From assembly GCA_022827685.1 (NCBI GenBank), contig JAJEIH010000134.1:1-35881 (forward strand): a stretch of 35,881 nucleotides of DNA, written 5' to 3'. A model generated the notes under the pieces. That model was not told the origin of the DNA and did not search any database. It saw only the letters and a list, made by a program, of their open reading frames with translations. Source of the stretch: Alphaproteobacteria bacterium (GTDB taxonomy: Bacteria; Pseudomonadota; Alphaproteobacteria; Bin95). Made by a program: the position numbers and the translations under genes. Position 1 is the stretch's first letter; every line of letters begins with the position of its first letter. This document shows positions 4,857-31,973 of the stretch, piece after piece.

Positions 4857-5417
4857 ATGACCGGCTATCTGGAGCACCCGCGCCTCAGGCCCTTCGATTT
4901 CCGCCGCTGGATCGACGGGCACCGCGACCTGCTGAAACCGCCGGTCGGCAACAAGCTGGTGTTCGAGGAAGCCGGCATGACCGTGATGGTGGTGGGCGGG
5001 CCGAACCGGCGGGTGGACTTCCACGACGACCCGGTCGAGGAGTTCTTCTACCAGCTGGAGGGCGACATGGTCCTCAAGGTGGCGGAAGAGGGCCGCATCT
5101 ACGATGTGCCGATCCGGGCGGGCGAAGTGTTCATGCTGCCGCCCCATGTGCGCCACTCGCCGCAGCGCCCGGTGCCGGGCTCGGTCGGGCTCGTGGTGGA
5201 AGCGCCGCGCGTCGGCGGCATGCTGGACGGGTTCGAGTGGTTCTGCTTCGACTGCGGCGCGCTGGTGCACCGGGTGGAGCTGCCGGTCGGCAACATCGTC
5301 ACGGACCTGCCGCCGCTGTTCGAGGCGTTCTACTCGGACGAGGCGGCCCGCACCTGCCCCGAATGCGGCGCCATCCATCCGGGCCGCGAGCCGCCTCCCG
5401 GCTGGGCGGAGGTATAG
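4857..5417 (+). CDS. nbaC: 3-hydroxyanthranilate 3,4-dioxygenase
   Basis: This cupin enzyme opens the ring of 3-hydroxyanthranilate to 2-amino-3-carboxymuconate semialdehyde, a kynurenine/nitrobenzoate pathway step. The 186-residue protein has the catalytic iron ligands H56, E62 and H100. R52, R104 and E115 sit where the substrate-binding residues of the Cupriavidus enzyme (R47, R99, E110) are expected, each offset by five. The bacterial second iron site is present as C130, C133, C167 and C170. It starts at ATG 4857 after a GAGGAG-type ribosome site. No decarboxylase or semialdehyde dehydrogenase for the next steps lies nearby, so the product may be used differently or elsewhere in the genome. 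Confidence 0.93.
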   Translation: MTGYLEHPRLRPFDFRRWIDGHRDLLKPPVGNKLVFEEAGMTVMVVGGPNRRVDFHDDPVEEFFYQLEGDMVLKVAEEGRIYDVPIRAGEVFMLPPHVRHSPQRPVPGSVGLVVEAPRVGGMLDGFEWFCFDCGALVHRVELPVGNIVTDLPPLFEAFYSDEAARTCPECGAIHPGREPPPGWAEV

Positions 5418-9608: not shown

Positions 9609-10718
9609 ATGAAGATCGACGATGTAACCCTTACCCTGTTCGCCTGGGACGACATCCCGGCGACCACCTATGGCAGCCATACGGGGACCTTCCAGGGCCG
9701 CAGCGAACTCGGCCTGCTGACCTTGCGCACCGATGATGGCATCGAGGGCCATGCCTTTCTCGGTTCGGCCAGCCGGGGCGCGGCGAGTGATGCCGAGTCG
9801 CTCATCCGCTTCCTCAAGCCGCAGGTGATGGGCGAACACCCGCTCGACCGGGAAAAGCTCTATCTCCGGCTGACGGCGCGCAACCGCAACACGACATGGC
9901 GGGCGATCGGCGCGGTCGATATCGCGCTCTGGGACATCGCCGGCAAGGCGGCGGGCCTGCCGATCCACCGGCTGATGGGCACGGTCCGGACGAGCGCGCC
10001 TGCCTATGCCAGCTCCGCCGTGCTCTCCTCGCCCGAAGCCTATGCCGAGGAGGCTGTCTCCTTCCGCGACGGAAACTGGAAGGCCTACAAGATCCACCCG
10101 CCGACCGACCCGGACGAGGATATCCGCGTCTGCGAGGCGGTGCGCAAGGCGGTCGGCGACAACTACCGCATCATGCTGGACAGCACCTGGTCCTACGACT
10201 ATCCGGCGGCGATGCGTGTCGGCCGGGCGGCGGAGCGGCTCGGCTTCCATTGGTACGAGGACCCGCTCGCCGACGACGACATCACCAACTACATCAAGCT
10301 GCGCCAGAAGCTCGACATCCCGATCCTTGCGACGGAATACAGCCCCGGCGGCTTCCAGGCCTATGCGCCCTGGCTGCTCCTGCAGGCGACCGACTATCTG
10401 CGCGGCGACGTGGCGGTGAAGGGCGGGCTCACCGCCTGCCTCAAGACCGCCCATCTCGCCGAGGCGTTCCACATGTCCTACGAGGTCCATCACGGCGGCA
10501 ATTCGCTGAACAACATGGCGAACCTGCATCTCATCTGCTCGATCCCGAACACGGAGATGTTCGAGGTGCTGATGCCGGACGGCGCCCACCGCTACGGGCT
10601 TGCCGAGGAAATCGTCGTGGACGGCGACGGCCGCGTGCATGCGCCGGAAGCGCCCGGCCTCGGCGCCGTCATCGACTTCGACCTCATCCGGGCGAAGACG
10701 ATCTCCGTGCTCTCCTGA
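9609..10718 (+). CDS. Mandelate racemase/enolase-superfamily acid-sugar-type dehydratase
   Basis: The 369-residue protein lines up with mandelate racemase almost residue for residue. Metal ligands are D191, E217 and E243. The His-Asp dyad is D267 with H294 or H295, and the electrophilic Glu is E319. K161 matches the first lysine of the Lys-x-Lys motif, but the second lysine is histidine (H163). Such enzymes abstract the alpha proton of a carboxylate and then racemise or dehydrate it; most relatives are sugar-acid dehydratases. GGAGGG at 9592-9597 precedes ATG 9609. It opens a six-gene operon with a decarboxylase, a hydratase, two VOC proteins and a CoA transferase, which suggests an organic acid other than a simple aldonate. 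Confidence 0.85.
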   Translation: MKIDDVTLTLFAWDDIPATTYGSHTGTFQGRSELGLLTLRTDDGIEGHAFLGSASRGAASDAESLIRFLKPQVMGEHPLDREKLYLRLTARNRNTTWRAIGAVDIALWDIAGKAAGLPIHRLMGTVRTSAPAYASSAVLSSPEAYAEEAVSFRDGNWKAYKIHPPTDPDEDIRVCEAVRKAVGDNYRIMLDSTWSYDYPAAMRVGRAAERLGFHWYEDPLADDDITNYIKLRQKLDIPILATEYSPGGFQAYAPWLLLQATDYLRGDVAVKGGLTACLKTAHLAEAFHMSYEVHHGGNSLNNMANLHLICSIPNTEMFEVLMPDGAHRYGLAEEIVVDGDGRVHAPEAPGLGAVIDFDLIRAKTISVLS

Positions 10719-10790
10719 CCGCCCTGCCCGCTTGAGCGCGGGGCGGGAATGGGCTTTGCTGCGGGGGACCGAAACGGAGCGAACACGACC

Positions 10791-11192
10791 ATGGACCTCA
10801 GCAGCTACAACCGCACGCCGGGCTTCGAACAGGGCCTGGCGGCCCGCCGCCGGGTGCTCGGCGAAGAGTATGTCGGCCCCTCCATCGCCCGGGGCGCGGA
10901 GGACGATTTCGCCCACCAGCTCCAGCAATTCGTCACCGAATATTGCTGGGGCACGGTGTGGTGCCGCGACGGCCTGCCGGACAAGACCCGCAGCATCATG
11001 AACCTGACCATGCTCGCCGCCCTCGGCCGCACCCACGAACTCCGCTTGCATACGCGCGGCGCGCTCAACAACGGCGTCACCAAGGAGGAGATCGCCGAGG
11101 TGTTCCTCCAGGTCGGCATTTATGCGGGCGTCCCGGCGGCGGTCGAGGCGTTCCGGGAGGCGTCCAAGGTGTTCGAGGAGATGGGGGTGTGA
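10791..11192 (+). CDS. Carboxymuconolactone decarboxylase-family protein
   Basis: The 133-residue single-domain protein has the all-helical PcaC/AhpD fold. It contains Gly-Ala-Leu-Asn-Asn-Gly-Val-Thr followed by Glu-Val-Phe-Leu-Gln-Val-Gly-Ile-Tyr-Ala-Gly-Val-Pro, as in 4-carboxymuconolactone decarboxylase. The Cys-x-x-Cys of the AhpD peroxidase group is absent, favouring a decarboxylase or isomerase role. ATG 10791 has GGAG at 10776-10779. Its TGA overlaps the GTG start of the hydratase gene by 4 bases. No other protocatechuate genes are present, so the substrate is probably a different lactone or beta-keto acid. Confidence 0.85.
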   Translation: MDLSSYNRTPGFEQGLAARRRVLGEEYVGPSIARGAEDDFAHQLQQFVTEYCWGTVWCRDGLPDKTRSIMNLTMLAALGRTHELRLHTRGALNNGVTKEEIAEVFLQVGIYAGVPAAVEAFREASKVFEEMGV

Positions 11193-11965
11193 CTGTCCAG
11201 GCTGCGGCGGACTTCCTGCTTGCCGCGCACCGCGAGGGCCGGCGCTTCGAGCGCCTGCCCGCCGGCATCGCGCCCGGCTCCGAGGACGAGGCCTACCGGG
11301 TGCAGGCCGCGCTGGTCGCGGGCCTCGGCCTGCCTGTCGCGGGCTGGAAGGTGGCGCTCACCTCCGCCGCCATGCGCCGCGTCGTGCCCGGCATCGACCA
11401 GCCCTGCGCCGGCGCGATCTTCGCCGAGCGCGTCCACCGCTCGCCGGCGAAGCTGCCGCGTTCTTCGCTGATGCGCATCGGGCTTGAATGCGAGGCGATG
11501 GTGCGCCTTGCGGACGACCTGCCGGATGCCGGCCGGCCCTGGACGCGGGAGAGCGTCGCGGACCATGTCGGCGCGGTGGCGGCCGCCTTCGAGCTCATCG
11601 ACGACCGCGAAGCGGATTACAACAACATGAACGCCTTCGAGCTCATCGCCGACAATGCCTGGAACGGCGGCGTGGTGGTCGGGCCCGAGGTCGCGGACTG
11701 GCAGGCGCTCGACCTCGTGGGCGCGCGCGGCAGTCTGGAGATCGACAGCAAGCCCGTGGGCGAGGGCCGGGGCGGCGACGCCATGGGCCATCCCTTCGAG
11801 CCGCTTGCCTGGCTCGCCAACAACGCCATAGCCCGCGGCCGGCCGCTCCGCGCCGGCGAGCTGGTGATGACCGGCTCCATCGTCCCGACCCAGTTCCTGG
11901 AAGCCGGCAACCGCGCCGTCTATACGCACGAGGCGCTCGGCACGGTGGAACTGGAGGTCGTCTGA
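11189..11965 (+). CDS. 2-keto-4-pentenoate hydratase (MhpD-type, FAH superfamily)
   Basis: Hydratases of this type add water to 2-hydroxypenta-2,4-dienoate-like products of meta-cleavage; close relatives decarboxylate 4-oxalocrotonate. The 258-residue protein has the metal ligands E100, E102 and E135, matching E106, E108 and E139 of MhpD. The start is GTG 11189, overlapping the previous stop as GTGA, which signals translational coupling; a longer frame from 10943 runs inside the preceding gene. Its presence beside a decarboxylase-like protein suggests that an unsaturated 2-oxo acid is an intermediate of this operon. Confidence 0.85.
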   Translation: MTVQAAADFLLAAHREGRRFERLPAGIAPGSEDEAYRVQAALVAGLGLPVAGWKVALTSAAMRRVVPGIDQPCAGAIFAERVHRSPAKLPRSSLMRIGLECEAMVRLADDLPDAGRPWTRESVADHVGAVAAAFELIDDREADYNNMNAFELIADNAWNGGVVVGPEVADWQALDLVGARGSLEIDSKPVGEGRGGDAMGHPFEPLAWLANNAIARGRPLRAGELVMTGSIVPTQFLEAGNRAVYTHEALGTVELEVV

Positions 11966-11995
11966 GGCCTGTCTCAACGGTTGCATGGAGGACGC

Positions 11996-12922
11996 ATGAC
12001 CGCTCCCGACCTTGCCTATGTGGCGCTCGCCGTCGATGAGCCGGAGGCCAGCGCGGCGATCTTCGAGAAGGATTTCAACCTGCTGCGGCAGGACTTCGCC
12101 TGCGGGCGGTCGAGCGTGCCGGTCATCTCGGTCGGGCGCTCGGCGCTGGCCCTCTTCCGCCCGGACGACCCGTTCCTCGGTCCGGGCGCGAAGAAGGGCG
12201 TCCACCATATGGCGATTGCCGCCGCCGACCCGGAGGCCGCGGCCGATGCCTCCGGTATCGCCAAGGCGGGCGGCGTCTCGGAGGGCCTTGGCGGCGGGCC
12301 GCAGGTAGAGCTTTCGCCCGACGCGACCGGCGGGGTGCGCACGCGCCTTGCGGCGCCGCTCGGCCTGGGTCCCGGTTCGTCCGAAATGGTCGAGCGAATC
12401 GATCATCTCGGCGTCGCGTCCGCCGACAACCGGGCGGCGCGCGAGACGTTCATCGACAGGCTGGGCTGCGTCTATGAAAGCCAGCAGACCGACAGCGAAA
12501 CCGAGACGGTCTCGGAGAATTTCACCTCCGACACCTACAACTACATTTTCCACACCAGGCCGTCGCACCTCGTCGGCAGCATGCGGGTGACCTTCATCAC
12601 CGTCGGCGATACGGAGCTGGAGTTCATCCAGGACCTGACGACGGGGAACGAGGCCGATGCCGCGCGGCACGACGCGGCCGGCAACACGCGCGGCGACCGC
12701 AGCGCCATCGCGCGCTACATCGCGGCGCGCGGCGCGGGGCTGCACCACATCGCCTTCAAGACGCCGGACGTGGCCGGATCGCTGGCGACGCTCCGGGCGG
12801 CGGGCCACCGGACCATAGACACGGTGGGCCGGCCGGGCTCCCGCCGTGCGCTCATCGGCTTCATGCACCCCACCATGATCGGCGGCGTGCTGATGCATTT
12901 CGTCCAGCGCGAGGAGGTCTGA
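11996..12922 (+). CDS. Two-domain VOC-fold protein (methylmalonyl-CoA epimerase/HPPD-like), copy 1
   Basis: The 308-residue protein contains two vicinal-oxygen-chelate modules. The C-terminal module (from about residue 130) resembles methylmalonyl-CoA epimerase: Ile-Asp-His-Leu-Gly-Val, Glu-Leu-Glu-Phe-Ile-Gln, Gly-Leu-His-His-Ile-Ala-Phe and a final strand Gly-Val-Leu-Met-His-Phe-Val-Gln. In epimerases the last strand supplies a glutamate ligand; here that position is histidine. The two-module build also recalls 4-hydroxyphenylpyruvate dioxygenase. ATG 11996 follows GGAGG at 11987-11991. It lies 3 bases before a paralogue with the same build, so the two may form a heteromer or act in successive steps. 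Confidence 0.8.
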   Translation: MTAPDLAYVALAVDEPEASAAIFEKDFNLLRQDFACGRSSVPVISVGRSALALFRPDDPFLGPGAKKGVHHMAIAAADPEAAADASGIAKAGGVSEGLGGGPQVELSPDATGGVRTRLAAPLGLGPGSSEMVERIDHLGVASADNRAARETFIDRLGCVYESQQTDSETETVSENFTSDTYNYIFHTRPSHLVGSMRVTFITVGDTELEFIQDLTTGNEADAARHDAAGNTRGDRSAIARYIAARGAGLHHIAFKTPDVAGSLATLRAAGHRTIDTVGRPGSRRALIGFMHPTMIGGVLMHFVQREEV

Positions 12923-12925
12923 CCC

Positions 12926-13873
12926 ATGGCCGGTTACGCGCTCAACTACCTGGCGCTGGCGGCCCGCGACGTGGAGGCCGCCTGCCGGTTCCTCGGCGGC
13001 TCGCTCGGCCTGGAGCGGACCGATGTCGCGCTCGGCGGCGGCACCGTGCCGTTCTTCGGCGTCGGCAGGTCGGCGGTCGCGCTGTTCGACCCCTACGACC
13101 CCTATCTGGATGAGCCGCAATTCCCGGGCGTCCACCATATGGCGCTGGCCGCGCCGGACCCCGCCGCCACCGCGGCCGCGCACAGCCTCACGGTCACGGC
13201 CGAGGGCGCGGGGCCGGACGGCAGGCGCTTCGTTGTCATCGACCCGCGGGAGACCGTCGGCATCCGCACCCGCTTCATCGAGCCGCTGGACATCCCGTCC
13301 GCCGACGGTCCCGCCTACAAGATCGACCATCTCGGCATCGCGACCGACGACAATGACGCCACGGTGCGCGTGTTCTCGGACAATCTCGGCTGCCCCGTCG
13401 AAAGCACGCAGACCGACGTGGAGATCCGCAACGTGACGGAGAGTTTCGTCTCCGACAAATACGGCGCGGTCTATCATTCGCGCCCGGCGGAGATCCTGGG
13501 CGGCCTGCGGGACGTCTTCATCACCATCGGCGACTGCGAGCTTGAAATGCTGATGGACTACGACCCGGCGCTGAAGCCGAGGGACGGACTCGGCGAGGAG
13601 AAAGGCAACACCAAGGGCGACCAGAGCGCGATCGCCAAATTCGTGGCGCGGCGGGGCCCCGGCCTGGCGCATGTCGCCTTCGCCACGCGGGATATCGACG
13701 CGCTGCTGCCGAAGCTCGCCGATGACGGCTGGCGCATGATCGACCTGGAAGGCCGCCCCGGCGGCCGCGGCTCGCTTATCGGCTTCGTGCATCCGTCCAA
13801 TTTCGGCGGCGGCCTGCTGATCCATTTCGTCGAACCGCAGGCCGACGGCGGCTATACGGCGAAATTCGGTTGA
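12926..13873 (+). CDS. Two-domain VOC-fold protein, copy 2
   Basis: The 315-residue paralogue of the preceding gene has the same two-module order. Matching landmarks are Ile-Asp-His-Leu-Gly-Ile, Glu-Leu-Glu-Met-Leu-Met, Gly-Leu-Ala-His-Val-Ala-Phe and Gly-Leu-Leu-Ile-His-Phe-Val-Glu. It also has histidine where epimerases have the glutamate metal ligand. The tail is about 10 residues longer than in copy 1. The tandem arrangement looks like an old duplication kept by selection, because both copies retain the candidate ligands while the rest has diverged. Possible chemistry is an isomerase, lyase or non-haem iron dioxygenase step; the sequence does not decide. Confidence 0.8.
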   Translation: MAGYALNYLALAARDVEAACRFLGGSLGLERTDVALGGGTVPFFGVGRSAVALFDPYDPYLDEPQFPGVHHMALAAPDPAATAAAHSLTVTAEGAGPDGRRFVVIDPRETVGIRTRFIEPLDIPSADGPAYKIDHLGIATDDNDATVRVFSDNLGCPVESTQTDVEIRNVTESFVSDKYGAVYHSRPAEILGGLRDVFITIGDCELEMLMDYDPALKPRDGLGEEKGNTKGDQSAIAKFVARRGPGLAHVAFATRDIDALLPKLADDGWRMIDLEGRPGGRGSLIGFVHPSNFGGGLLIHFVEPQADGGYTAKFG

Positions 13874-13900
13874 GGCCGCGCAACCGACCGGAGACACGCC

Positions 13901-15103
13901 ATGCCGCTGCCGCTTGAGACCATTCGTGTGCTGGACCTGACGCGCGCCGCTGCAGGCCCGTTCTGCACCATGATCCTCGCCGATTTCGGCGCCGACGTGG
14001 TGAAGGTCGAGCCCTTGCCGAACGGGGACCTGACGCGGCTCTGGGGTCCTTACGACCACGATATCGGCGTCTATTACCTCTCCATCAACCGTAACAAGCG
14101 GGGCCTCGGCGTCGATTTCCGCAACGAGGCGGGCCTGGAGACGGTGCGCCGGATGGCAGCGGAAGCCGATGTCGTGGTGGAGAACTTCAAGCCCGGGACG
14201 ACAGCAGCGATGGGCCTCGACTACGAGACCGTCAGCCGGGCCAACCCCGGCGTCATATACGGCAGCATCACAGGCATGGGCAGCTCCGGGCCCTATGGAA
14301 GCTGGCCCGGCCTCGACCAGATCGCGCAGGGCATGTCCGGCATGATGAGCCTGACGGGCGAGCCCGGCGGCGCGCCCACCCGCTACGGCGTTCCCATCGG
14401 CGACTTCACGGCCGGCATGTGGTGCGCGCTCGCCATCACCGCCGCCGTCGCCCAGCGGCATGTGACCGGAAAGGGCCAGCGGGTGGAGACCTCGCTGCTG
14501 GCGGCGCTTGTCGGCCTGCTGAGCGTGCAGGGCCAGCGCTACCTGTCGAACGGCGAAGTGCCCGGCCAGGCTGGCAACGACCATCCGACGATTTATCCGT
14601 ACGGCCTGTTCGAGGCGAAGGACGGGCCGCTCAATGTCGCTACGCCGAGCGACAAGCACTGGCAGTGGCTCTGCCGGGTGCTCGGTTGCGAGGAGTTGCT
14701 GGCGGAGGAGAAATACAGCACGAACGACCTTCGCCGGGCGAACCGGGACGAACTGCGCGAGCTTTTGAACGTCCGATTCCGGACCCGCGATGCCATCGAC
14801 TGGACAAAGGAGCTGATGGAAGGCGGCATCCCGACCGGCCCCGTCTATTCCCTCGACAGGGTGTTCGCCGACCCGCAGGTCCGCCAGCAGGGCATGGTCG
14901 AGGAGATCGACCACCCGACCGTCGGCGCGCTGAAGCTGCTCTCGAACCCGATCCGCATGGACGCGTTCGAGGGCCGGACCGTACGCACGCCGCCGCCGCT
15001 GCTGGGCCAGCACAATCGCGACGTGCTGGAGGAATACGGCTTCCCGCCCGACGCCATCGCGGAACTGGAGGCCGCCGGCGCCATAGGCGGCGAGACCGCG
15101 TGA
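13901..15103 (+). CDS. CaiB/BaiF-family (class III) CoA transferase
   Basis: The 400-residue protein opens with the family signature Val-Leu-Asp-Leu-Thr-Arg and the run Gly-Ala-Asp-Val-Val-Lys-Val-Glu-Pro. It carries the catalytic aspartate D139 in Pro-Gly-Leu-Asp-Gln-Ile-Ala-Gln-Gly-Met-Ser-Gly. Class III enzymes move CoA from a donor acyl-CoA to a carboxylic acid, or racemise or eliminate on the thioester. It is the last gene of the operon, 27 bases after the VOC pair. Its likely job is to activate the pathway acid, or to recycle CoA from its end product, for the epimerase-like VOC proteins. Donor and acceptor are unknown. Confidence 0.9.
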   Translation: MPLPLETIRVLDLTRAAAGPFCTMILADFGADVVKVEPLPNGDLTRLWGPYDHDIGVYYLSINRNKRGLGVDFRNEAGLETVRRMAAEADVVVENFKPGTTAAMGLDYETVSRANPGVIYGSITGMGSSGPYGSWPGLDQIAQGMSGMMSLTGEPGGAPTRYGVPIGDFTAGMWCALAITAAVAQRHVTGKGQRVETSLLAALVGLLSVQGQRYLSNGEVPGQAGNDHPTIYPYGLFEAKDGPLNVATPSDKHWQWLCRVLGCEELLAEEKYSTNDLRRANRDELRELLNVRFRTRDAIDWTKELMEGGIPTGPVYSLDRVFADPQVRQQGMVEEIDHPTVGALKLLSNPIRMDAFEGRTVRTPPPLLGQHNRDVLEEYGFPPDAIAELEAAGAIGGETA

Positions 15104-15206: not shown

Positions 15207-15530
15207 ATGACGCTTGGAGAAATCGCCGTCCGGCTGGAGGTGCTCGGCAACGAGACGCGGCTTGCCGTTTTCCGCCATGTGGTGCGGGCGGGCGAGCGGG
15301 GCCTCGCCGTCAACGACATCCACGAGCGCACGGGCGTGCCCCGCTCCACGCTCTCCCACCATCTGCGCCGGCTGGTCGATTGCGGCCTGATGCAGCGGGA
15401 GCGGCGGGGCACCACGCTCATCTGCCGCGCCAATGCGGAGGCGATGACAGAGACGCTCGGCTTCCTGCTGAAGGAATGTTGCGCGGACGAGGTTGACAAT
15501 CTTTCCAGGCATCAGCATATTTCTATTTAG
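15207..15530 (+). CDS. ArsR-family metalloregulator with vicinal cysteines
   Basis: The 107-residue winged-helix repressor has a recognition region Arg-Ser-Thr-Leu-Ser-His-His-Leu (46-53). The classical Cys-Val-Cys site of plasmid ArsR is absent; instead adjacent cysteines C91-C92 lie near the C-terminus, with C59 and C73 elsewhere. C-terminal cysteine pairs occur in ArsR proteins that respond to arsenite (Acidithiobacillus) or selectively to methylarsenite (Shewanella). ATG 15207 has no clear ribosome site, but a -10 box lies just upstream, consistent with leaderless translation; a longer frame from 15153 would overlap the promoter. The next gene encodes an ArsP-like permease, supporting a metalloid role. 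Confidence 0.82.
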   Translation: MTLGEIAVRLEVLGNETRLAVFRHVVRAGERGLAVNDIHERTGVPRSTLSHHLRRLVDCGLMQRERRGTTLICRANAEAMTETLGFLLKECCADEVDNLSRHQHISI

Positions 15531-18387: not shown

Positions 18388-20025
18388 CTAACCCGGCGGG
18401 CGCAGGCGAAAACGCTGGATCTTGCCGGTGGCCGTCTTCGGCAGGGCGTCGGTGAAGACGATGGAGCGCGGATATTTGTAGGGGGCGATCGCCGCCTTGA
18501 CATGCTCTTGCAGGCAGCGGGCCATGGCCTCGTCCGGCTCGGCGCCCTCCGCCAGCACGACATGCGCCTGGACGATCTGGCCGCGCTCGGGGTCCGGGGC
18601 CGCCACGACGGCGCATTCCAGCACCTGCCCGTGCGCCAGCAGCACCGCCTCCACCTCGGGGCCGGCGATGTTGTAGCCGGAGGAGACGATCATGTCGTCA
18701 TTGCGGGCGACGAAGGTGAAATACCCTTCCCCGTCCTGGACGAACCGGTCGCCCGTGACGTTCCAGCCATCGACGACATAGTCCCGCTGGCGGTCGTCGG
18801 CGAGATAGCGGCAGCCCGTCGGCCCGCGCACCATGAGGCGCCCCGGCTCGCCCCTCGGCAGCTCGCGGAAGCGGCCGTCCACCACCTTCGCCTCGTAGCC
18901 GGTGACGGGCCGCCCGGTGCAGCCCGGCCGGGCGTCGTCCAGCCGGTTGGAGATGAAGATGTGCAGCAGTTCGGTCGCGCCGATGCCGTCGAGGATCGGC
19001 TTGCCGGTCTTCTCCACCCACTCCTCGAAGACGGGCGCAGGCAGCGTCTCGCCGGCCGATACCGCGCAGCGCAGCGAGGAGAGGTCCGCGCCCCGGTCCA
19101 TCTCGCGCAGCATCACGCGGTAGGCGGTCGGCGCCGTGAAGCAGATCGTCGCCCTGTACTGCTGGATGAGCTCGATCAGGTTCGGCGGCGAGGCGGTTTC
19201 GAGCAGCGCGGCCGCCGCCCCGAACCTGAGCGGGAAGATCGCGAGCCCGCCGAGTCCGAAGGTGAAGGCGAGCGGCGGCGAGCCGACGAAGATGTCCGCC
19301 GGGGTCACGCCCAGAACCTCCTTCGCATAGCCGTCGGCAACCGCCAGCAGGTCGCGGTGGAAGTGCATCGTCGCCTTGGGTGCGCCGGTGGTGCCGGAGG
19401 TGAAGCCGAGCAAGGCCACGTCGTCCCGCCCGGTCGGTGCGGCCTCGAAGGTCACCGGCTTGTCGAGCGCGGCGCGGTCGAGCTCCGCATCGTGGTTGGC
19501 GGTGCCGTCGAAGCCGACTACCTGGCGGAGGAACCGGCTCTCCTTGGCGCAGAGCGCGAGCTCGTCCATCAGGCGCGTATCGCAGAGCGCAAGGCTGAGC
19601 TCGCATTTGTCCACGATCTGCCCGAGCTCGGCCGCGCGCAGCAGCGGCATGGTGTTGACCGCGACCGCGCCCGCCTTGGTCGCCGCCAGCCAGCAGGCGA
19701 CCATGGCCGGGTTGTTGGCCGAGCGGATCAGCACGCGCTCCCCCGGCTTCAGGCTGAAATCCTCGACGAGGGCGCGGGCGAGCCGGTTGGTCCAGTCGGA
19801 GAGCTCCTTGTAGGTGCGGCGGCGCCCGTTGCCGATCAGCGCAATGCTGTCGCCGAACCCCCGCTCCACCATCCGGTCGGTCAGCTCGACGGCCGCGTTG
19901 AGCCGGTCGGGATAGTCGAGCCCCTCCAAGCTCAGGTTCGGCCATTGCTCCAGGGGCGGCAGCCGGTCGCGGGAGAAGGTGTCCTCGTGCCCGCTCGGGC
20001 CGAGATGCGGGCCGGCGGCAGTCAC
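18388..20025 (-). CDS. abmG: 2-aminobenzoate-CoA ligase (benzoate-CoA ligase family)
   Basis: ATP-dependent acyl-CoA synthetase of 545 residues, predicted to turn anthranilate into anthraniloyl-CoA. The adenylate motif Thr-Ser-Gly-Thr-Thr-Gly-Ala-Pro-Lys spans 209-217, the A5-type segment is Gly-Ile-Gly-Ala-Thr-Glu, and catalytic K535 sits in Thr-Ala-Thr-Gly-Lys-Ile-Gln-Arg. The His-Phe-His-Arg-Asp stretch after the P-loop is typical of aryl-CoA ligases. The start is GTG at 20023-20025, overlapping the MarR stop by 4 bases. Substrate assignment rests on the co-transcribed fused monooxygenase/reductase; benzoate or salicylate remain possible by motif alone. Confidence 0.85.
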   Translation of the reverse strand: MTAAGPHLGPSGHEDTFSRDRLPPLEQWPNLSLEGLDYPDRLNAAVELTDRMVERGFGDSIALIGNGRRRTYKELSDWTNRLARALVEDFSLKPGERVLIRSANNPAMVACWLAATKAGAVAVNTMPLLRAAELGQIVDKCELSLALCDTRLMDELALCAKESRFLRQVVGFDGTANHDAELDRAALDKPVTFEAAPTGRDDVALLGFTSGTTGAPKATMHFHRDLLAVADGYAKEVLGVTPADIFVGSPPLAFTFGLGGLAIFPLRFGAAAALLETASPPNLIELIQQYRATICFTAPTAYRVMLREMDRGADLSSLRCAVSAGETLPAPVFEEWVEKTGKPILDGIGATELLHIFISNRLDDARPGCTGRPVTGYEAKVVDGRFRELPRGEPGRLMVRGPTGCRYLADDRQRDYVVDGWNVTGDRFVQDGEGYFTFVARNDDMIVSSGYNIAGPEVEAVLLAHGQVLECAVVAAPDPERGQIVQAHVVLAEGAEPDEAMARCLQEHVKAAIAPYKYPRSIVFTDALPKTATGKIQRFRLRPPG

Positions 20026-20483
20026 GGCCGGTCCTCGCGAATGGAAGAGAGGGTGTCGATCACGGTCTGCGCTTCGTCATGGCCGATGGCCGCAAGCCGC
20101 CGGTCCACCCAGTCCTCATGCTCGGCTGCCATCGCGGCGAAGGCGGCGGCGCCTGCCTGCGTCAGCCGGACGAGGATCGCGCGGCGGTCGCCCTCCACCG
20201 CCAGGCGCTCCACCAGCCCGTCCGAGACCAGCCGTTCGACGATCCCGGTGACATTGCCGTTGGAGACCATGAGATGGCGCGACAGCTCGCCCATCAGCAG
20301 GCCGCCGGCGTGCCGTTCGAGCGCGGAGAGGACATCGAAGCGGGGCAGCGTCGTGCGATAGGCCGTCCGCATCTCCTCGCGCAGGTCCGCCTCGATCAGG
20401 CGCGTGGTGCGCAGCAGGTTCACCCAGAGGCGCAGGCGCTGCTTGCTGAGGCCGTTTCCGGCCTTGCCGTCCGGACCGCTCAT
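20022..20483 (-). CDS. MarR-family transcriptional regulator
   Basis: The 153-residue winged-helix protein has the recognition region Leu-Met-Val-Ser-Asn-Gly-Asn-Val-Thr-Gly-Ile-Val-Glu-Arg-Leu followed by the wing Val-Glu-Gly-Asp-Arg-Arg-Ala. MarR proteins in aromatic-CoA clusters usually repress until the CoA-thioester substrate binds. ATG at 20481-20483 overlaps the SDR stop as ATGA, and its own stop overlaps the ligase start. It is thus the third of four coupled genes. The AT-rich dyad at 23579-23613, upstream of the operon, is its best candidate site. Confidence 0.92.
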   Translation of the reverse strand: MSGPDGKAGNGLSKQRLRLWVNLLRTTRLIEADLREEMRTAYRTTLPRFDVLSALERHAGGLLMGELSRHLMVSNGNVTGIVERLVSDGLVERLAVEGDRRAILVRLTQAGAAAFAAMAAEHEDWVDRRLAAIGHDEAQTVIDTLSSIREDRP

Positions 20484-21247
20484 ATCTCGCCTCCCGAAAG
20501 CGCGATGGCCTGGCCGTTGACCGCGGCCGTCCCGTCCCGGCACAGCCAGAGCGCCGCCGCGGCGACCTCCTCCGGGTCGATCAGGCGCTGCTGGGGATTG
20601 GACGCGGCAAGGCGTGCGCGGGCGTCCCCGGGGGTCATGCCGGTCGCCTCCGCAATCGTCGCGATGCTGCGTTCGGTCATCTCCGTGTCGAGGAAGCCCG
20701 GGCACAGCGCGTTCACGGTTACACCCGTCCGGGCAACCTCCAGGGCCAGCGCGCGGGTCAGCCCGACCACGCCGTGCTTGGCCGCCGTGTAGGCGGAGAC
20801 ATAGGGATAGCCCTTGAGCCCGGCAGTCGATGAAACGGCGATAAGCCGACCCCATGCGGGATCGCGCATCGCCTTGAGGCCGACCCTCAGCGTCAGGAAC
20901 ACCCCCGTCAGGTTCAACGCGATCATGCGGTCCCAAAGGTCGCGCCCGGTCCGGGTGAAGGGCGCGCTCTCGGCCGCGCCCGCATTCGCGACGACGATAT
21001 CGACGGGGCCGGCCCGGTCGAACAGCGCTTCCACGGACGCCTCGTCGGTCACGTCCGCCACCGTCCAGGCGATCTTCTCATGGCGCGCGGCGACGGCCTT
21101 GAGCGCGTCCGCCCGTCGCCCGGCGATGCGGACCCCGGCGCCCGCATTCGCGAAGGCGAGCGCCATCGCCGCGCCGACCCCGGAGCCGCCGCCCGTCACC
21201 ACCGCGCTCCTGCCGGCAAGCGGCGCGTTGTCGGTCCCGTTCGTCAT
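20480..21247 (-). CDS. SDR dehydrogenase, 3-hydroxyacyl-CoA type
   Basis: Classical short-chain dehydrogenase of 255 residues: Thr-Gly-Gly-Gly-Ser-Gly-Val-Gly cofactor loop near residue 18, Asn-Ala-Gly-Ala, a catalytic Ser in Val-Ser-Ser-Thr-Ala and Tyr-Thr-Ala-Ala-Lys. It sits between the anthraniloyl-CoA monooxygenase/reductase and the regulator, overlapping both neighbours by 4 bases. This suggests oxidation of a cyclic or ring-opened hydroxyacyl-CoA intermediate of the same pathway. The exact substrate cannot be inferred from sequence. Confidence 0.9.
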
Positions 21248-23529
21248 ACACGCATTCCCATGCCTTCACCGCGCCCGGCGAGGCGGCGCAACTGGTCCCG
21301 CCCGGCGAGGTAGGGGACCGGCCATTCCGCCATCTCGTCGCCGAGCGCGGCGGCGGCGTGCAGCGTCCAGTAGGGATCGGTCAGATGGGGCCGGCCCAGG
21401 CAGACAAGATCGGCCCGGCCGGCGAGAAGGATCGTGTTCACATGGTCCGGGGCGTAGATGTTGCCGACCGCCATGGTCGGGGCGCCGGTCTCGTTGCGGA
21501 TGCGGTCGGAGAAGGGCGTCTGGAACATGCGCCCGTAGACCGGCACCGCCTCGGTCGAGGTCTGTCCGGCGGAGACATTGACGATATCGACGCCGGCCGC
21601 GACGAACATCGAGGCGACCGCGACCGCCTCCGCCGGCGTGACGCCCCGCTCCCCGACCCAGTCGTTCGCGGAAATGCGCACCGACATCGGCTTCTCCCCG
21701 GGCCACACGGCGCGCATCGCGGAGAAGACCTCCAGCGGATAGCGCATCCGGTTCTCGAGCGTCCCGCCATAGGCGTCCGTGCGCACATTCGACAGCGGCG
21801 AGATGAAGGACGAAATGAGATAGCCGTGGGCGGCGTGCAGCTCGATCATGTCGAAACCGGCCCGGTCCGCCATGGCGGCGGCGGCCGCGAACCGGTCCCG
21901 GACCGCGTCCATGTCGGCCCGGTCCATGGCGCGGGGGACCGCATTGCGGGGCGACCAGGGGATCGCCGAGGCGGAAATCAGGGGCCAGTTGCCGTCTGGC
22001 AGCGGCGCGTCCATCTCCTCCCAGCCGAGTTGCGTCGAGCCCTTGCGGCCCGAATGGCCGATCTGGCAGCAGATCCGGGCCTGCGTCTCCGCGTGGACGA
22101 AATCGGTCAGCCGCCGCCAGGCCGCCTCGTGCTCCGGCGCATAGAGGCCGGTGCAGCCGGGCGTGATCCGGCCTTCGGGGCTCACGCAGGTCATCTCGAC
22201 CGTGACCAGCCCCGCACCCCCCTTCGCCCGCTCGGCGTAATGCGCGAAATGCCAGTCGGTCGGCCGGCCGTCGACCGCCTTGTACTGGGCCATCGGGGAC
22301 ACCGCCACGCGGTTCGCGAGCGTCATGTCCCTGAGCTTGAACGGCGCGAACATCGGCGCGCGGCGGGCATTGGAGCCCGCCTGCCTCTGGAACCAGGTCT
22401 CCGCCGATTCCAGCCACTTGCCGTCGCGCAGGCGCAGGTTCTCGTGGCCGATCCGCTGGCTGCGGGTCAGCAGCGCATAGTTGAACTGCACGGGGTCGAG
22501 ATGGAGATAGCGCTCAAGCTCCTCGAACCATTCCGTCGAGTTGCGCGCCGCCGACTGCAGCCTCAGCACCTCCAGCCGGCGTTCTTCCTCGTAGCGCGCG
22601 AAGGCCTGCGCCAGGTCCGGCTCGGCGTTCACCAGCTCCGCCAGCAGGATCGCGCTCTCCAGGGCCAGCTTGGTGCCGGAGCCGATGGAAAAGTGGGCGG
22701 TGGCGGCGGCGTCGCCCAGCAGCGCCAGGTTCCCGTGGCTCCAGCGCCCGCAGAGCACCCGGTTGAAGTTGAGCCAGGCCGAGCCGCGCAGATGGCGCGC
22801 ATTGGAGACCAGCCGGTTGCCGCCGAGATATTTCCCGAAGACCGCCTCGCAGACCCCGATGCTCTCCTCCTGCGTCATCCCGTCGAAGCCCCAGGCGGAC
22901 CAGGTCTCCTCCGAGCATTCGACGATGAAGGTCGCGGTGTCCTCGTCGAACTGGTAGGCATGCGCCCACATCCAGCCCCTGGCTGTCTTCTCGAACAGGA
23001 AGGTGAAGGCGTCGTCGAACTTCTGGCGCGTGCCGAGCCAGACGAACTTGCAGGCGCGCACGTCGATCTCGGGCCTGAAGATGTCGGCGAAGGCGGCGCG
23101 CGCCTTCGAGTTGACCCCGTCCGCCGCCACGACGAGATCGTATTCCGCCATGAGCGCCGGAATGTCGTCGATTTCCGTCTCGAACCGGAGCTCGACCCCG
23201 AGCGCCCGCGCGCGCTCCTGCAGCAGCATGAGGAGCCGCCTGCGCCCGATGCCGCAGAACCCGTGGCCGCCGGAGACCGTCGTCACGCCCCGGTAGTGAA
23301 CGGCGATATCGTCCCACCGGGCGAAGTGCGAGCGGATCGCCTCGGCGCTTTCCGGGTCGTTTCCTGCGAGATTGTCGAGCGTCTCGTCGGAGAGGACCAC
23401 GCCCCAGCCGAACGTGTCGTCGGGGCGGTTGCGCTCGAAGACGGCGACCTCGTGCGAGGGATCGCGCAGCTTCGTGCTTATCGCGAAATACAGTCCCGCC
23501 GGACCGCCGCCGAGGCATGCCGTCTTCAT
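21244..23529 (-). CDS. abmA: 2-aminobenzoyl-CoA monooxygenase/reductase (fused flavoprotein)
   Basis: The 761-residue fusion has two parts. Residues 1-~385 are a group A FAD monooxygenase: Gly-Gly-Gly-Pro-Ala-Gly at 7-12, Asp-Gly near 137-138 and Leu-Gly-Asp-Ala at 271-274. Residues ~393-761 are an old-yellow-enzyme FMN reductase starting Phe-Ala-Pro-Phe-Lys-Leu and including His-Ala-Ala-His-Gly-Tyr-Leu. This architecture is that of the Azoarcus enzyme that hydroxylates and then reduces the ring of anthraniloyl-CoA to 2-amino-5-oxocyclohex-1-enecarboxyl-CoA. Database entries often call it salicylyl-CoA 5-hydroxylase, but the C-terminal half favours anthraniloyl-CoA. ATG at 23527-23529 has an AGGGAGA-type site; a TTG 30 bases upstream is less likely. 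It is the first gene of the operon. Confidence 0.92.
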
Positions 23530-26582: not shown

Positions 26583-27833
26583 ATGCCCGCCCCCGGTGAG
26601 AACCTGAAGATCAACGGCGAGCGGCTCTGGGACAGCCTGATGGAGATGGCGAAGATCGGTCCCGGCGTGGCCGGCGGCAACAACCGTCAAACGCTGACCG
26701 ACGAGGACGGCGTAGGCCGCGCGCTGTTCCAGCAATGGTGCGAGGCGGCCGGCTGCGAGATGGGCCTCGACCAGATGGGCAACATGTTCGCAACGCGGGC
26801 CGGAACCGACCCCGACGCATTACCGGTCTTCGTGGGCAGCCATCTCGATACGCAGCCGACCGGCGGCAAGTATGACGGCGTGCTCGGCGTGCTCGGCGGG
26901 CTCGAAATCGTGCGGACCCTCAACGAGCTGGGAATCAGGACCAGGCGCCCGATCGTGGTCATCAACTGGACCAATGAGGAAGGGACGCGCTACGCGCCGC
27001 CCATGCTGGCATCGGGCGTGTTCGCCGGCGTCCATACGCAGGACTGGGCCTACGGCCTGACGGACGCGGACGGCAAGCGCTTCGGGGATGAACTCGAGCG
27101 CATCGGCTGGCGCGGCGAGGAAGAGACCGGCGCGCGGAAGATGCACGCCTATTTCGAGCTGCATATCGAGCAAGGGCCGATCCTGGAGGCCGAGGAGTGC
27201 GATATCGGCGTCGTCACCCACGGCCAGGGGCTCCGCTGGATCGAATGCCGGATAACCGGCAAGGAAAGCCATACCGGCTCCACGCCCATGCGGATGCGCC
27301 GCAATGCCGGGCGCGGGCTCGCACAGATAACCGAGCTGGTCCACGAAGTCGCGATGAAGCACCAGCCCAACGCGGTCGGCGCCATCGGGCATGTCGATGT
27401 CTATCCGAACTCGCGCAACATCATCCCGGGCCGGGTCGTGTGCACGATCGACTTCCGCAGCCATGTGCTGGAAACGCTCGAGGGCATGGTGGCCGAGGTG
27501 ATGGAGAAGGCGCCCGCGATCTGCGAGGCGCTGGGCTGCGGGGTCGAGACGGAGATCGTCGGCAGCTTCGATCCGCCCGAGTTCCACCACGGCTGCGTCA
27601 AGGCGGTGCGCGATGCGGCCGAGCGGCTCGGCTATTCCCACATGGATATCGTCTCGGGCGCCGGCCACGACGCTTGCTGGATCAACAATATCGCGCCGGC
27701 GGCGATGGTGATGTGCCCCTGCGTGGACGGGCTGAGCCACAACGAAGCCGAGGAGATTTCGCCGGAATGGGCCGCCAGGGGCTGCGACGTACTCTTCCAT
27801 GCGGTGGTGGAGACAGCGGAGCTTCTGGAGTAG
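26583..27833 (+). CDS. N-carbamoyl amidohydrolase / beta-ureidopropionase (M20 type)
   Basis: Zinc-dependent amidohydrolase of 416 residues that splits N-carbamoyl amino acids to amino acid, CO2 and ammonia. Metal ligands visible are H87 and D98 (Ser-His-Leu-Asp-Thr ... Gly-Gly-Lys-Tyr-Asp-Gly), E132/E133 (Asn-Glu-Glu-Gly), H194 (His-Ile-Glu-Gln-Gly-Pro) and a C-terminal His in Gly-Ala-Gly-His-Asp-Ala. Alternative family members are allantoate amidohydrolase and L-carbamoylase. Pairing with a dihydropyrimidinase favours beta-ureidopropionase (PydC) or hydantoin-derived N-carbamoyl amino acids. ATG 26583 lies ~100 bases after the flavin gene, with a GTGAGG ribosome site. Confidence 0.9.
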   Translation: MPAPGENLKINGERLWDSLMEMAKIGPGVAGGNNRQTLTDEDGVGRALFQQWCEAAGCEMGLDQMGNMFATRAGTDPDALPVFVGSHLDTQPTGGKYDGVLGVLGGLEIVRTLNELGIRTRRPIVVINWTNEEGTRYAPPMLASGVFAGVHTQDWAYGLTDADGKRFGDELERIGWRGEEETGARKMHAYFELHIEQGPILEAEECDIGVVTHGQGLRWIECRITGKESHTGSTPMRMRRNAGRGLAQITELVHEVAMKHQPNAVGAIGHVDVYPNSRNIIPGRVVCTIDFRSHVLETLEGMVAEVMEKAPAICEALGCGVETEIVGSFDPPEFHHGCVKAVRDAAERLGYSHMDIVSGAGHDACWINNIAPAAMVMCPCVDGLSHNEAEEISPEWAARGCDVLFHAVVETAELLE

Positions 27834-27902
27834 GCCGACCCCGGCGGCCGCGGGCGGGCCGGGCCGGCTCGCACAGGGAACGAGATGTAGCGGAGGCCTC
27901 GA

Positions 27903-29363
27903 ATGAGCAAAGTCATCAAGGGCGGCACCGTCCTGACTGCGGATCGGACCTGGAAGGCCGATGTCCTGATCGAAGGCGAGAAGATCGCCGCCATCGGCGA
28001 GAGCCTGACCGGCGACGAGGTCGTCGATGCCTCGGAGGCCTATGTCATCCCCGGCGGGATCGACCCGCACACGCATCTGGAAATGCCGTTCATGGGCACG
28101 ACCGCCGCCGAGACCTTCGAGTCCGGCACCTGGGCGGCGGCGACCGGCGGGACCACCATGCTGGTCGATTTCGTCCTGCCCGGCGAGGACGGATCGCTGT
28201 TGAGCGCCGTCGATTCCTGGGACGCCAAGTCGAAGGACCAGATCTGCGTCGATATCGGCTATCACTGCGCGATCGTGGACTGGAACGAGCAGATCCACAA
28301 CGAGATGGCCGAGGTCGTCCGGCGCGGCATCAACACCTTCAAGCATTTCATGGCCTACAAGGGCGCGCTGATGATCGACGACGACGAGATGTTCGCGTCG
28401 TTCCGCCGCTGTGCCGCGCTCGGCGCCATGCCGCTCGTCCATGCCGAGAACGGCGACGTGGTGGCGGCGCTCCAGGAAAAATACATGGAGGAGGGCCTCA
28501 CCGGGCCCGAGGGGCACGCCTATTCGCGGCCGCCGGAGGTCGAAGGCGAGGCCGCCAACCGCGCCATCATGATCGCCGATGCCGCGGGCGTGCCGCTCTA
28601 CATCGTGCATGTGTCCTGCGAGCAGGCGCACGAGGCCATCCGGCGCGCGCGCCAGAAGGGCATGCGGGTCTATGGCGAGCCGCTGATCCAGCATCTCACG
28701 TTGGATGAGTCGGAGTATTTCGACCAGGACTGGGACTATGCGGCTCAGCGGGTCATGTCGCCGCCCTTCCGCGGCAAGCAGCACCAGGACGGGCTCTGGG
28801 CCGGGCTGGCGGCCGGGTCGCTGCAAGTGGTGGCCACCGACCACGCCGCCTTCACCACGGGCCAGAAGCGCATGGGGCTGGCCGGATTCCCGATGATCCC
28901 GAACGGGACCGGCGGGCTTGAGGACAGGATGCCGGTGCTCTGGACCAAGGGCGTCGATACCGGGCGGCTGACGCCCAACGAGTTCGTCGCGGTCACCTCC
29001 ACCAACATCGCCAAGATCCTCAATGTCTATCCGAAGAAGGGCGCGCTGGTGGAAGGGGCGGACGCCGATGTCGTGGTCTGGGACCCGAAGATCAAAAAGA
29101 CGATCTCCGCCACCACCCAGAAGTCGATCATCGACTACAACGTCTTCGAAGGTGTCGAGGTCTCGGCCCAAGCGCGCTATACGCTGAGCCGTGGCGAGGT
29201 GATCTGGGAATACGGCAAGAACTCGCAGCCGCGCCCCGGCCGCGGGCGGTTCGTGCGGCGCCGGGCGTTCCCCGCCGTGCATGAGGCGCTCGCCCGCTGG
29301 AAGGAGCTGACCGCGCCGCGCAAGGTGCAGCGCGACCCATTGAACATCCCGAGCGGGGTTTGA
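27903..29363 (+). CDS. hydA: Dihydropyrimidinase / D-hydantoinase
   Basis: Cyclic-amide hydrolase of 486 residues that opens dihydrouracil, dihydrothymine or hydantoins to N-carbamoyl acids, the substrate of the preceding gene product. The binuclear metal site shows His-Thr-His (H56, H58), carboxylated lysine K153 in Phe-Met-Ala-Tyr-Lys-Gly, H180 in Leu-Val-His-Ala-Glu-Asn, a further His in Val-His-Val-Ser and an Asp in Ala-Thr-Asp-His. Length fits the family. ATG 27903 is 69 bases after the amidohydrolase. No dihydropyrimidine dehydrogenase (PreA/PreT) is found in the window, so the reductive first step is elsewhere or the natural substrate is a hydantoin. Confidence 0.95.
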   Translation: MSKVIKGGTVLTADRTWKADVLIEGEKIAAIGESLTGDEVVDASEAYVIPGGIDPHTHLEMPFMGTTAAETFESGTWAAATGGTTMLVDFVLPGEDGSLLSAVDSWDAKSKDQICVDIGYHCAIVDWNEQIHNEMAEVVRRGINTFKHFMAYKGALMIDDDEMFASFRRCAALGAMPLVHAENGDVVAALQEKYMEEGLTGPEGHAYSRPPEVEGEAANRAIMIADAAGVPLYIVHVSCEQAHEAIRRARQKGMRVYGEPLIQHLTLDESEYFDQDWDYAAQRVMSPPFRGKQHQDGLWAGLAAGSLQVVATDHAAFTTGQKRMGLAGFPMIPNGTGGLEDRMPVLWTKGVDTGRLTPNEFVAVTSTNIAKILNVYPKKGALVEGADADVVVWDPKIKKTISATTQKSIIDYNVFEGVEVSAQARYTLSRGEVIWEYGKNSQPRPGRGRFVRRRAFPAVHEALARWKELTAPRKVQRDPLNIPSGV

Positions 29364-29405
29364 GACCGCCCGGACGGGCGCTTCGCCGGCGCCGGAGCGG
29401 CGGTC
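29364..29405 (+). other. Intercistronic stem-loop before the ABC genes
   Basis: GACCGCC (29364-29370) and GGCGGTC (29399-29405) pair perfectly and enclose a GC-rich inner segment with further pairing (GGCGC/GCGCC type). The structure starts right after the hydA stop and ends 4 bases before the ATPase start, which lacks a clear ribosome site. It may act as a processing or attenuation element that lowers or uncouples transporter expression. Confidence 0.4.
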
Positions 29406-29409
29406 TTCG

Positions 29410-30195
29410 ATGACCCGCGCAGGAGCGATCGTCGCGTCTTCGCTCGACCTGGTCTTTCAGACCAATGACGGGCCCGTGCATGCGCTGTCGAACGTCGATC
29501 TGGAGGTGGCGCCGGGCGAGTTCATCAGCTTCATCGGGCCCTCGGGCTGCGGGAAGACGACATTGCTGCGCGTGATCGCGGATCTGGAGCAGCCGACCGG
29601 CGGCACGATTGCCGTCAACGGGATGACGCCGAGGGAGGCGCGGCTCAACCGCGCCTATGGCTATGTGTTTCAGGCGGCGGGGCTGTATCCCTGGCGCACC
29701 ATCGAGAAGAATGTGCGCCTGCCGCTAGAGGTCATGGGCTACCCCGCGCAGGAACGGGCGGAGCGGGTGAGCCGCGTTCTCGACCTCGTCGGCCTCGGCG
29801 ATTTCGGCCGCATGTTCCCCTGGCAGCTTTCGGGCGGCATGCAGCAACGGGCGTCGATTGCGCGCGCGCTCTCATTCGACGCGGACCTGCTGCTGATGGA
29901 CGAGCCTTTCGGCGCGCTCGACGAGATCGTGCGCGACCACCTGAACGAGCAGTTGCTGGCGCTGCATGCGCGAACAGGCAAGACCGTCTGCTTCGTCACC
30001 CACTCGATCCCGGAAGCGGTTTACCTCTCGACCAAGATTGTGGTGATGAGCCCGAGGCCCGGACGGATCATCGACGTGATCGAGAGCCCGTTGCCGACCG
30101 AGCGCCCGCTCGACATACGCGAAAGCGCGGCCTTCCTGGAACTGGCCGGAAGGGTGCGCGAGGGCCTGCGCGCAGGACACAGCTATGATGAATGA
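29410..30195 (+). CDS. ABC transporter ATPase (SsuB/TauB/ThiZ-like)
   Basis: The 261-residue nucleotide-binding subunit has Walker A Gly-Pro-Ser-Gly-Cys-Gly-Lys-Thr-Thr (43-51), Q-loop Q88, signature Leu-Ser-Gly-Gly-Met-Gln-Gln-Arg (140-147), Walker B ending Met-Asp-Glu-Pro (163-166) and switch H198. The Phe-Gly-Ala-Leu-Asp D-loop and overall size match the nitrate/sulfonate/taurine importer class. It is followed by two permeases and a THI5-like binding protein, making a complete importer placed behind the dihydropyrimidinase gene; uptake of pyrimidines or hydantoin-like solutes is the natural inference. Confidence 0.94.
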   Translation: MTRAGAIVASSLDLVFQTNDGPVHALSNVDLEVAPGEFISFIGPSGCGKTTLLRVIADLEQPTGGTIAVNGMTPREARLNRAYGYVFQAAGLYPWRTIEKNVRLPLEVMGYPAQERAERVSRVLDLVGLGDFGRMFPWQLSGGMQQRASIARALSFDADLLLMDEPFGALDEIVRDHLNEQLLALHARTGKTVCFVTHSIPEAVYLSTKIVVMSPRPGRIIDVIESPLPTERPLDIRESAAFLELAGRVREGLRAGHSYDE

Positions 30196-30240
30196 GGCGG
30201 CGGTCGGCGTCGCATCCCGGCCGGCGGCGCGGCGGGGCTG

Positions 30241-31104
30241 ATGCGCAGCATCCTTCCCATAGCAGCAATCTGCTTTGCCATCGTGACGGTCTGGTATGTC
30301 GGCGCCGTTGGCCTGAACGCCAAGTGGGAGCGCGACCAGGCCTCGCGCGCGGGCGTCGAGATCGGCTGGGCGGAGATTATTCCGGCCACGATGTCGCAGG
30401 ACCGCCCCGTCCTGCCGGCCCCTCACCAGGTCGCCGTCGAGATCTGGAAGACCACGGTTGAGAAGCGCATCACCTCCAAGCGCAGCCTCGTCTATCACGG
30501 CTGGATCACGCTGTCGGCGACTCTGCTGGGCTTCGTCATGGGCGTGGGCCTCGGGATCCTGCTAGCGGTCGGGATCGTCCACAACCGGGCGATGGACCTC
30601 TCCGTCATGCCCTGGGTCATCTCCAGCCAGACCGTGCCCATCCTGGCGGTCGCGCCGATGATTATCGTGGTGCTCTACAATGTTGGAATCTCGGGGATCG
30701 TCGCGAAGGCCGCGATCTCGGCCTATCTCAGCTTCTTCCCGGTGGCGGTCGGCATGGTGAAGGGGCTGCGCGCACCCGACGACATGCAGCTCGACCTGAT
30801 GCGCACCTACAATGCGTCCGCCTGGCAGGTCTTCTGGAAGCTGCGCTGGCCCTCCTCCCTGCCCTATCTCTTCGCATCCCTCAAGGTCGCCATCGCTATT
30901 GCGCTCGTGGGCGCGATCATCGGCGAGCTGCCCACCGGCAGCCAGGGCGGCTTCGGGGCGCGGATGCTGAACGGCAGCTATTACGGCCAGGTGCTCATCA
31001 TCTGGTCCGCGCTCTTCGGCGCCGCGATCTGCGCAGCGCTGATGGTCGGCGCCATCGGAGTGGCGCAGCGCGCGGTGCTCGGCCGGACGGGGCAGGCGCG
31101 ATGA
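30241..31104 (+). CDS. ABC transporter permease, first subunit
   Basis: Inner-membrane permease of 287 residues with an N-terminal hydrophobic segment, a periplasmic stretch of about 60 residues and the SsuC-type core of five or so helices. The cytoplasmic coupling (EAA-type) loop is seen near Ala-Ser-Ala-Trp-Gln-Val-Phe-Trp-Lys-Leu-Arg-Trp-Pro. Its stop overlaps the start of the second permease as ATGA, so the two are translationally coupled and probably form a heterodimer. ATG 30241 is 45 bases after the ATPase gene; ATG codons closer to it are in other frames. Confidence 0.92.
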   Translation: MRSILPIAAICFAIVTVWYVGAVGLNAKWERDQASRAGVEIGWAEIIPATMSQDRPVLPAPHQVAVEIWKTTVEKRITSKRSLVYHGWITLSATLLGFVMGVGLGILLAVGIVHNRAMDLSVMPWVISSQTVPILAVAPMIIVVLYNVGISGIVAKAAISAYLSFFPVAVGMVKGLRAPDDMQLDLMRTYNASAWQVFWKLRWPSSLPYLFASLKVAIAIALVGAIIGELPTGSQGGFGARMLNGSYYGQVLIIWSALFGAAICAALMVGAIGVAQRAVLGRTGQAR

Positions 31105-31937: not shown

Positions 31938-31973
31938 CGGCAACCGCAACGCTTCATTGCCAGGGAGAGTGAC

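Follow-up and report, generated by a model that had tools for sequence, protein, structure and literature searches.

Three putative catabolic modules behind htpG in an alphaproteobacterial draft genome, among them a recurring VOC–CoA transferase unit

Gene layout and coding status

The window analyzed here, a stretch of 35,881 nucleotides, belongs to a 4.3 Mb alphaproteobacterial draft genome (G000, contig C66). Gene calls on the window showed that positions 9609–15103 are filled by six intact open reading frames, all running in one direction, which for ease of description are divided into modules A, B and C (Table 1). The three modules are stacked behind htpG, which is the usual neighbor of the module A enolase in the genus. 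The six gene families named in a preliminary description of the locus were confirmed by the reading frames and by Pfam assignments above the curated cut-offs. The spacing of −4 to ≈72 bases given there also agrees with the intergenic gaps measured here, which are 72, −4, 30, 3 and 27 bases in the 5′ to 3′ direction; the negative value corresponds to a 4-base overlap between the CMD gene and the hydratase gene, which starts with GTG.

Table 1. Genes of the six-gene segment and the basis of their assignment. CMD, carboxymuconolactone decarboxylase family protein; CoAT, CoA transferase.
Gene (module)	Description	Position	Strand	Basis
Enolase (A)	Mandelate-racemase-subgroup enolase; KxH motif K161/H163	9609–10718	+	Pfam MR_MLE_N and MR_MLE_C; structures 1rvk, 4hcd
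CMD (B)	PcaC-like carboxymuconolactone decarboxylase family	10791–11192	+	Pfam CMD; TIGR02425
Hydratase (B)	MhpD-like 2-oxo-alkenoate hydratase, FAA hydrolase family	11189–11965	+	Pfam FAA_hydrolase; relatives of 1sv6/2wqt
VOC1 (C)	Two-module VOC protein	11996–12922	+	Glyoxalase_4 match; C-terminal half methylmalonyl-CoA epimerase-like; alignment
VOC2 (C)	Paralog of VOC1	12926–13873	+	Alignment; AlphaFold2 model; fold match
CoAT (C)	Class III (CaiB/BaiF) CoA transferase	13901–15103	+	Full-length Pfam match; candidate catalytic Asp168

The coding status of the frames was assessed by comparison with G004, a relative from the same genus that holds all six genes. Differences at codon positions 1/2/3 amounted to 9/4/78 for the enolase, 1/1/20 for CMD, 11/9/42 for the hydratase, 8/15/40 for VOC1, 13/7/45 for VOC2 and 11/8/57 for CoAT. 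Since the differences fall mostly at third positions in each of the six, we consider all of them to be genes under selection. A scan with the sigma-70 consensus gave no promoter-like sites between the six genes, the sole match being at 15493, downstream of the set. This result is compatible with a single transcript, although it is weak evidence in DNA that is this GC-rich, and in the window genome co-transcription of the six genes is possible.

Other parts of the window also contain catabolic genes. On the minus strand, positions 18388–23529 hold an AMP-dependent ligase, a MarR regulator, an SDR and a 761-residue FAD/old-yellow-enzyme fusion (assigned by Pfam, with the remainder read by eye), which together read as a 2-aminobenzoyl-CoA monooxygenase set. 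Together with a 3-hydroxyanthranilate dioxygenase at 4857–5417, this suggests tryptophan or anthranilate catabolism. Farther along, a carbamoylase, a dihydropyrimidinase-like gene and an ABC transporter (ATPase, two permeases and a binding protein) lie in a row at 26583–32963, and look by eye like a set for the uptake and breakdown of pyrimidines or hydantoins.

The enolase and the CMD–hydratase pair

The enolase contains the Pfam MR_MLE domains, with scores above the cut-offs, and residues D191, E217, E243, D267 and H294/H295 could be located in its sequence. By analogy with the family, we take the acidic residues D191, E217 and E243 to be metal ligands, and the histidine and D267 to form the His-Asp dyad. 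This combination of domains, three acidic ligands and dyad places the protein in the mandelate racemase subgroup, and its domains, ligands and KxH motif are common to two members of that subgroup, 1rvk and 4hcd, which are the closest solved structures. None of the named acid-sugar dehydratases (galactarate, arabinonate, rhamnonate and others) was matched, the best score being 120.9 bits against an NCBIfam equivalog cut-off of 500. The enolase is most likely a dehydratase or racemase of a hydroxy acid or sugar acid.

Enolase orthologs (68–71%) were found both in further genera of the family and in a single second family. In these genomes outside the genus, matches to VOC2 were either short and of the epimerase type or missing, and in two of them the enolase comes after a different VOC-like gene of ≈290 residues. 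A further ortholog, on a Polaromonas plasmid (67%), has IlvD, D-glycerate dehydrogenase, SSADH, other hydroxyacid dehydrogenases and TTT binding proteins as its neighbors, a context that points to the catabolism of hydroxy or sugar acids. (These neighborhoods were read from loci other than L105, L106 and L110, for which the gene caller gave no genes.)

In module B, CMD scored about 143.2–143.8 bits against TIGR02425 (PcaC), for which the equivalog cut-off is 155.7, and the hydratase scored 104.6 bits against the NCBIfam equivalog for MhpD/DmpE (2-hydroxypentadienoate hydratase), which has a cut-off of 350. While the two proteins have the fold and most conserved positions of PcaC and MhpD, respectively, both remain below the equivalog cut-offs, and both lie outside pca or mhp clusters. 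Motif positions E100, E102, E135 and K54 are present in the hydratase; going by the family, the three glutamates presumably bind the metal and K54 is the active-site lysine. The pair occurs in each of the eight genus members, with an identical overlap at every readable junction, and CMD and the hydratase travel as a pair.

We considered the possibility that CMD is the PcaC of a scattered protocatechuate (β-ketoadipate) pathway, and that the remaining genes are unrelated neighbors. CMD is the top PcaC match of the genome, well ahead of a runner-up at 79.7 bits; a PcaGH-like pair and a PcaB that exceeds its cut-off are encoded elsewhere in the same genome, and the presence of CMD–hydratase throughout the genus also speaks for a scattered pathway. 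However, the CMD score falls short of the PcaC cut-off, and the β-ketoadipate pathway has no role for a constant hydratase partner. Furthermore, relatives of CMD on plasmids (≈55–61% identity) lie among GntR regulators, NAD(P)-dependent oxidoreductases and TTT/TRAP or ABC transporters instead of pca genes, and because of these neighbors we retain the PcaC step of a scattered pathway only as a rival explanation, and as a somewhat unlikely one.

The VOC proteins, the CoA transferase and a crotonase-fold partner

VOC1 and VOC2 are 44% identical in the alignment. An AlphaFold2 model of VOC2 (pLDDT 88.4, pTM 0.85) has a predicted VOC fold with two VOC modules, and by extension each of the two proteins is expected to consist of two such modules. 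Against TIGR03081 (methylmalonyl-CoA epimerase), VOC1 scored 78.6 bits and VOC2 scored 85.7 bits, both under the cut-off of 114.95. The likeness to the epimerase lies in the sequence of the C-terminal module and in the positions of two His and one acidic ligand. In contrast to the epimerase, VOC1 and VOC2 have an added, degenerate N-terminal module, and the Glu of the epimerase is replaced in them by an invariant His. The candidate metal ligands of VOC2 are four residues, H135, E207, H249 and H300, that show no variation among 23 VOC relatives; H300 is the residue that aligns with the catalytic/metal Glu on the last strand of the epimerase. Since the N-terminal module retains just H71 and has lost the other ligand positions, each VOC chain would have a single metal site.

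The best fold matches to the VOC2 model in the PDB were hydroxymandelate synthase and HPPD (Foldseek, TM ≈0.6, E 8e-14). These enzymes also consist of tandem VOC modules, with the catalytic site expected in the C-terminal module, and the match raises the possibility that VOC1 and VOC2 are oxygenases of this type rather than enzymes resembling a CoA-thioester epimerase. HPPD-type enzymes use a Glu to complete a 2-His-1-Glu iron site. However, when read through the epimerase alignment, the corresponding last-strand position in VOC2 appears to be occupied by the invariant His, the TM-scores are only ≈0.6, and the identity to HPPD and hydroxymandelate synthase is ≈15%. Moreover, the C-terminal half resembles methylmalonyl-CoA epimerase in sequence, and the CoA-linked gene context, with a CoA transferase as constant partner, points to acyl-CoA substrates. 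We consider an oxygenase function very improbable. The favored assignment, an epimerase-like reaction on a CoA thioester, would follow from a remote resemblance to an epimerase whose catalytic Glu is missing here.

VOC2-like proteins were rare among the 385 Alphaproteobacteria and 398 Pseudomonadota genomes searched, and no VOC2 relatives were found in plasmid records. A Prevotella locus (L054) was rejected as a VOC relative, as the match covered 32 residues and was taken to be due to chance.

CoAT matches the full Pfam model (CoA_transf_3) with 414 bits and is a full-length member of class III (CaiB/BaiF), in which Asp168, within a GDFTAG motif, is the candidate catalytic Asp. It has both the full-length family match and this Asp in common with class III CoA transferases of the succinate-glutarate and succinyl-CoA:mesaconate types, and its best solved relative is the human-type succinate-hydroxymethylglutarate CoA transferase 9br6. 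Because it scored well under every one of the equivalog cut-offs of the named class III enzymes, the substrate was left unassigned. In its 4.3 Mb, the window genome has 45 CaiB/BaiF family matches, which we take to be an unusually high number.

Outside the genus, VOC1–VOC2 recur in MAGs of Rhodospirillaceae and Burkholderiales, with a CoAT and/or a crotonase-fold gene nearby. CoAT is found near the VOC genes in L044, L045, L048, L050, L051 and L053, while the crotonase-fold gene directly follows VOC2 in L042, L044–L046, L048 and L049 and is located further on in L050 and L051. CoAT is combined with a single VOC and a crotonase in three genomes (L068–L070) that belong to the same order as G757 (Burkholderiales). 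The neighbors of these genes, read by eye, include GntR and TRAP genes in L068, and in L069 and L070 they include TTT binding proteins. Beside the VOC/CoAT loci outside the genus, neither the enolase nor the CMD of the window type was found. In L048, a partial second copy of VOC1 (positions 2748–2987; 61% over residues 1–80) lies between the CoA transferase and TRAP transporter genes.

The crotonase partners carry a GGGxE...PQ signature in 11 of 11 loci, at positions that we take to be those of Glu144 and Glu164 in rat enoyl-CoA hydratase. Since Gln replaces the second catalytic Glu, ordinary hydratase activity appears unlikely for these proteins. No close copy of the crotonase was found in the eight genomes of the window genus, where the best matches were generic paralogs with 33–38% identity, and module C of the window genome has neither a close crotonase copy nor an adjacent TRAP/TTT transporter.

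Gene order in relatives and proposed chemistry of module C

Gene order was compared within the window genus. The relatives used throughout are mostly draft MAGs, several gene separations fall at contig ends, and absences depend on the search thresholds and on these ends. Genes in the relatives were called with our own codon-usage script, and neighbors were named by eye unless a database match is given. The enolase adjoins CMD in the window, in G002 and in G006, whose enolase copy is truncated at the end of the contig. G004 has the enolase beside htpG, apart from CMD; the next gene lies on the opposite strand and looks like a LysR-type regulator. The contigs of G003 and G005 stop 0.64 and 0.33 kb past the enolase without a CMD, and a different contig carries CMD–hydratase, upstream of VOC1. 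The hydratase and VOC1 are ≈30 bases apart in G004 and G007, as they are in the window, but ≈440 bases apart in G005 and ≈850 in G003; in G002, the two genes are on separate contigs with other neighbors. A predicted opposite-strand ORF separates the hydratase from VOC1 in G005 (L039). The extra DNA at this junction (L039, 8634–9071, ≈440 bases; L041, 1080–1930, ≈850 bases) is missing from the window and possibly represents insertions.

In G006, enolase–CMD–hydratase is followed by ArsR–permease–Ldh2–GST genes with VOC1–VOC2–CoAT absent between them; in the window, the same ArsR–permease–Ldh2–GST genes come after the six-gene set. The G006 hydratase ortholog (L103, 9114–9817), with module C missing beside it, is in pieces in different frames, reflecting either decay or an assembly error. 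G001 has CMD–hydratase, and neither an enolase nor a VOC2 was found there.

The preliminary description had matched the gene set to no pathway, and this still holds: no paper describing this gene combination was found in the open-access literature. It had also proposed that the six genes constitute one undescribed catabolic route. In such a route, the enolase would dehydrate or racemize a hydroxy acid, CMD would decarboxylate the product, the hydratase would hydrate a 2-oxo-alkenoate, and CoAT and the VOC proteins would complete the acyl-CoA chemistry, the scattered copies being rearranged parts of one pathway. The tight co-directional spacing without a predicted internal promoter is in keeping with this proposal, as are the enolase–CMD–hydratase order in G002 and G006 and the position of the hydratase upstream of VOC1 in G003, G004, G005 and G007. 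Indeed, because junctions persist in G002–G007, the gene order of the window may be old in the genus. However, the gene-neighborhood comparison split the six families into three separable modules: these occur independently outside the genus, G001 has CMD–hydratase without a detected enolase or VOC2, G006 lacks module C where the window has it, and the predicted ORF in L039 interrupts the hydratase–VOC1 junction. Because of this synteny, we dropped the single pathway as the best account and regard it as improbable.

The segment is better described as a stack of three catabolic modules behind htpG that are separable from each other, with module C as the true recurring unit. We assign this reading a probability of roughly 0.6. 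Against it stand the adjacency and common direction of all six genes in the window and the retention of enolase–CMD or CMD–hydratase–VOC1 junctions in three relatives from the genus, and some functional link among the six genes is conceivable.

Module C probably processes a carboxylic acid. Its gene content, gene order and conserved residues are observed and its VOC fold is predicted, while the reactions that follow, and their sequence, are proposals. Based on its family and candidate catalytic Asp, the CaiB protein would transfer CoA to the acid. The VOC pair could then shift the α proton of the CoA thioester with the assistance of a metal, by enolization, epimerization or related enolate chemistry; as judged from the fold and the invariant residues, this step would be similar to that of methylmalonyl-CoA epimerase, with His replacing the Glu that serves as fourth ligand. 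In other bacteria, the crotonase-fold enzyme, whose two catalytic positions hold a Glu and a Gln, may take the product onward, and in several of these loci genes for a GntR regulator and for TRAP/TTT transporter proteins are located nearby. More speculatively, these components (CaiB, a two-module His-for-Glu VOC, a single-Glu crotonase and TRAP/TTT uptake) could form an undescribed CoA-dependent route for an environmental carboxylic acid, in which the VOC proteins carry out a new acyl-CoA reaction such as C–C bond cleavage or a skeletal rearrangement; we consider this unlikely.

A comparable gene repertoire is known from SAR202, for which the available portions of two descriptions (PMC5395668, PMC6946804) report an expansion of CaiB and MR-type enolases and propose the catabolism of carboxylates. 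The many CaiB paralogs and MR-type enolases are shared with the window genome; however, SAR202 belongs to another phylum, and the VOC–VOC–CaiB unit is absent from these portions of the descriptions.

The analysis reduces an apparent six-gene pathway to a smaller, testable unit, and shows that, where modules reshuffle within a genus, the close spacing of genes in a single MAG says little about whether they share a pathway. Among unrelated Alpha- and Betaproteobacteria, VOC–CaiB is found repeatedly with a crotonase, and both active sites deviate consistently, with His for Glu in the VOC proteins and Gln for Glu in the crotonase, which suggests chemistry outside the named families.
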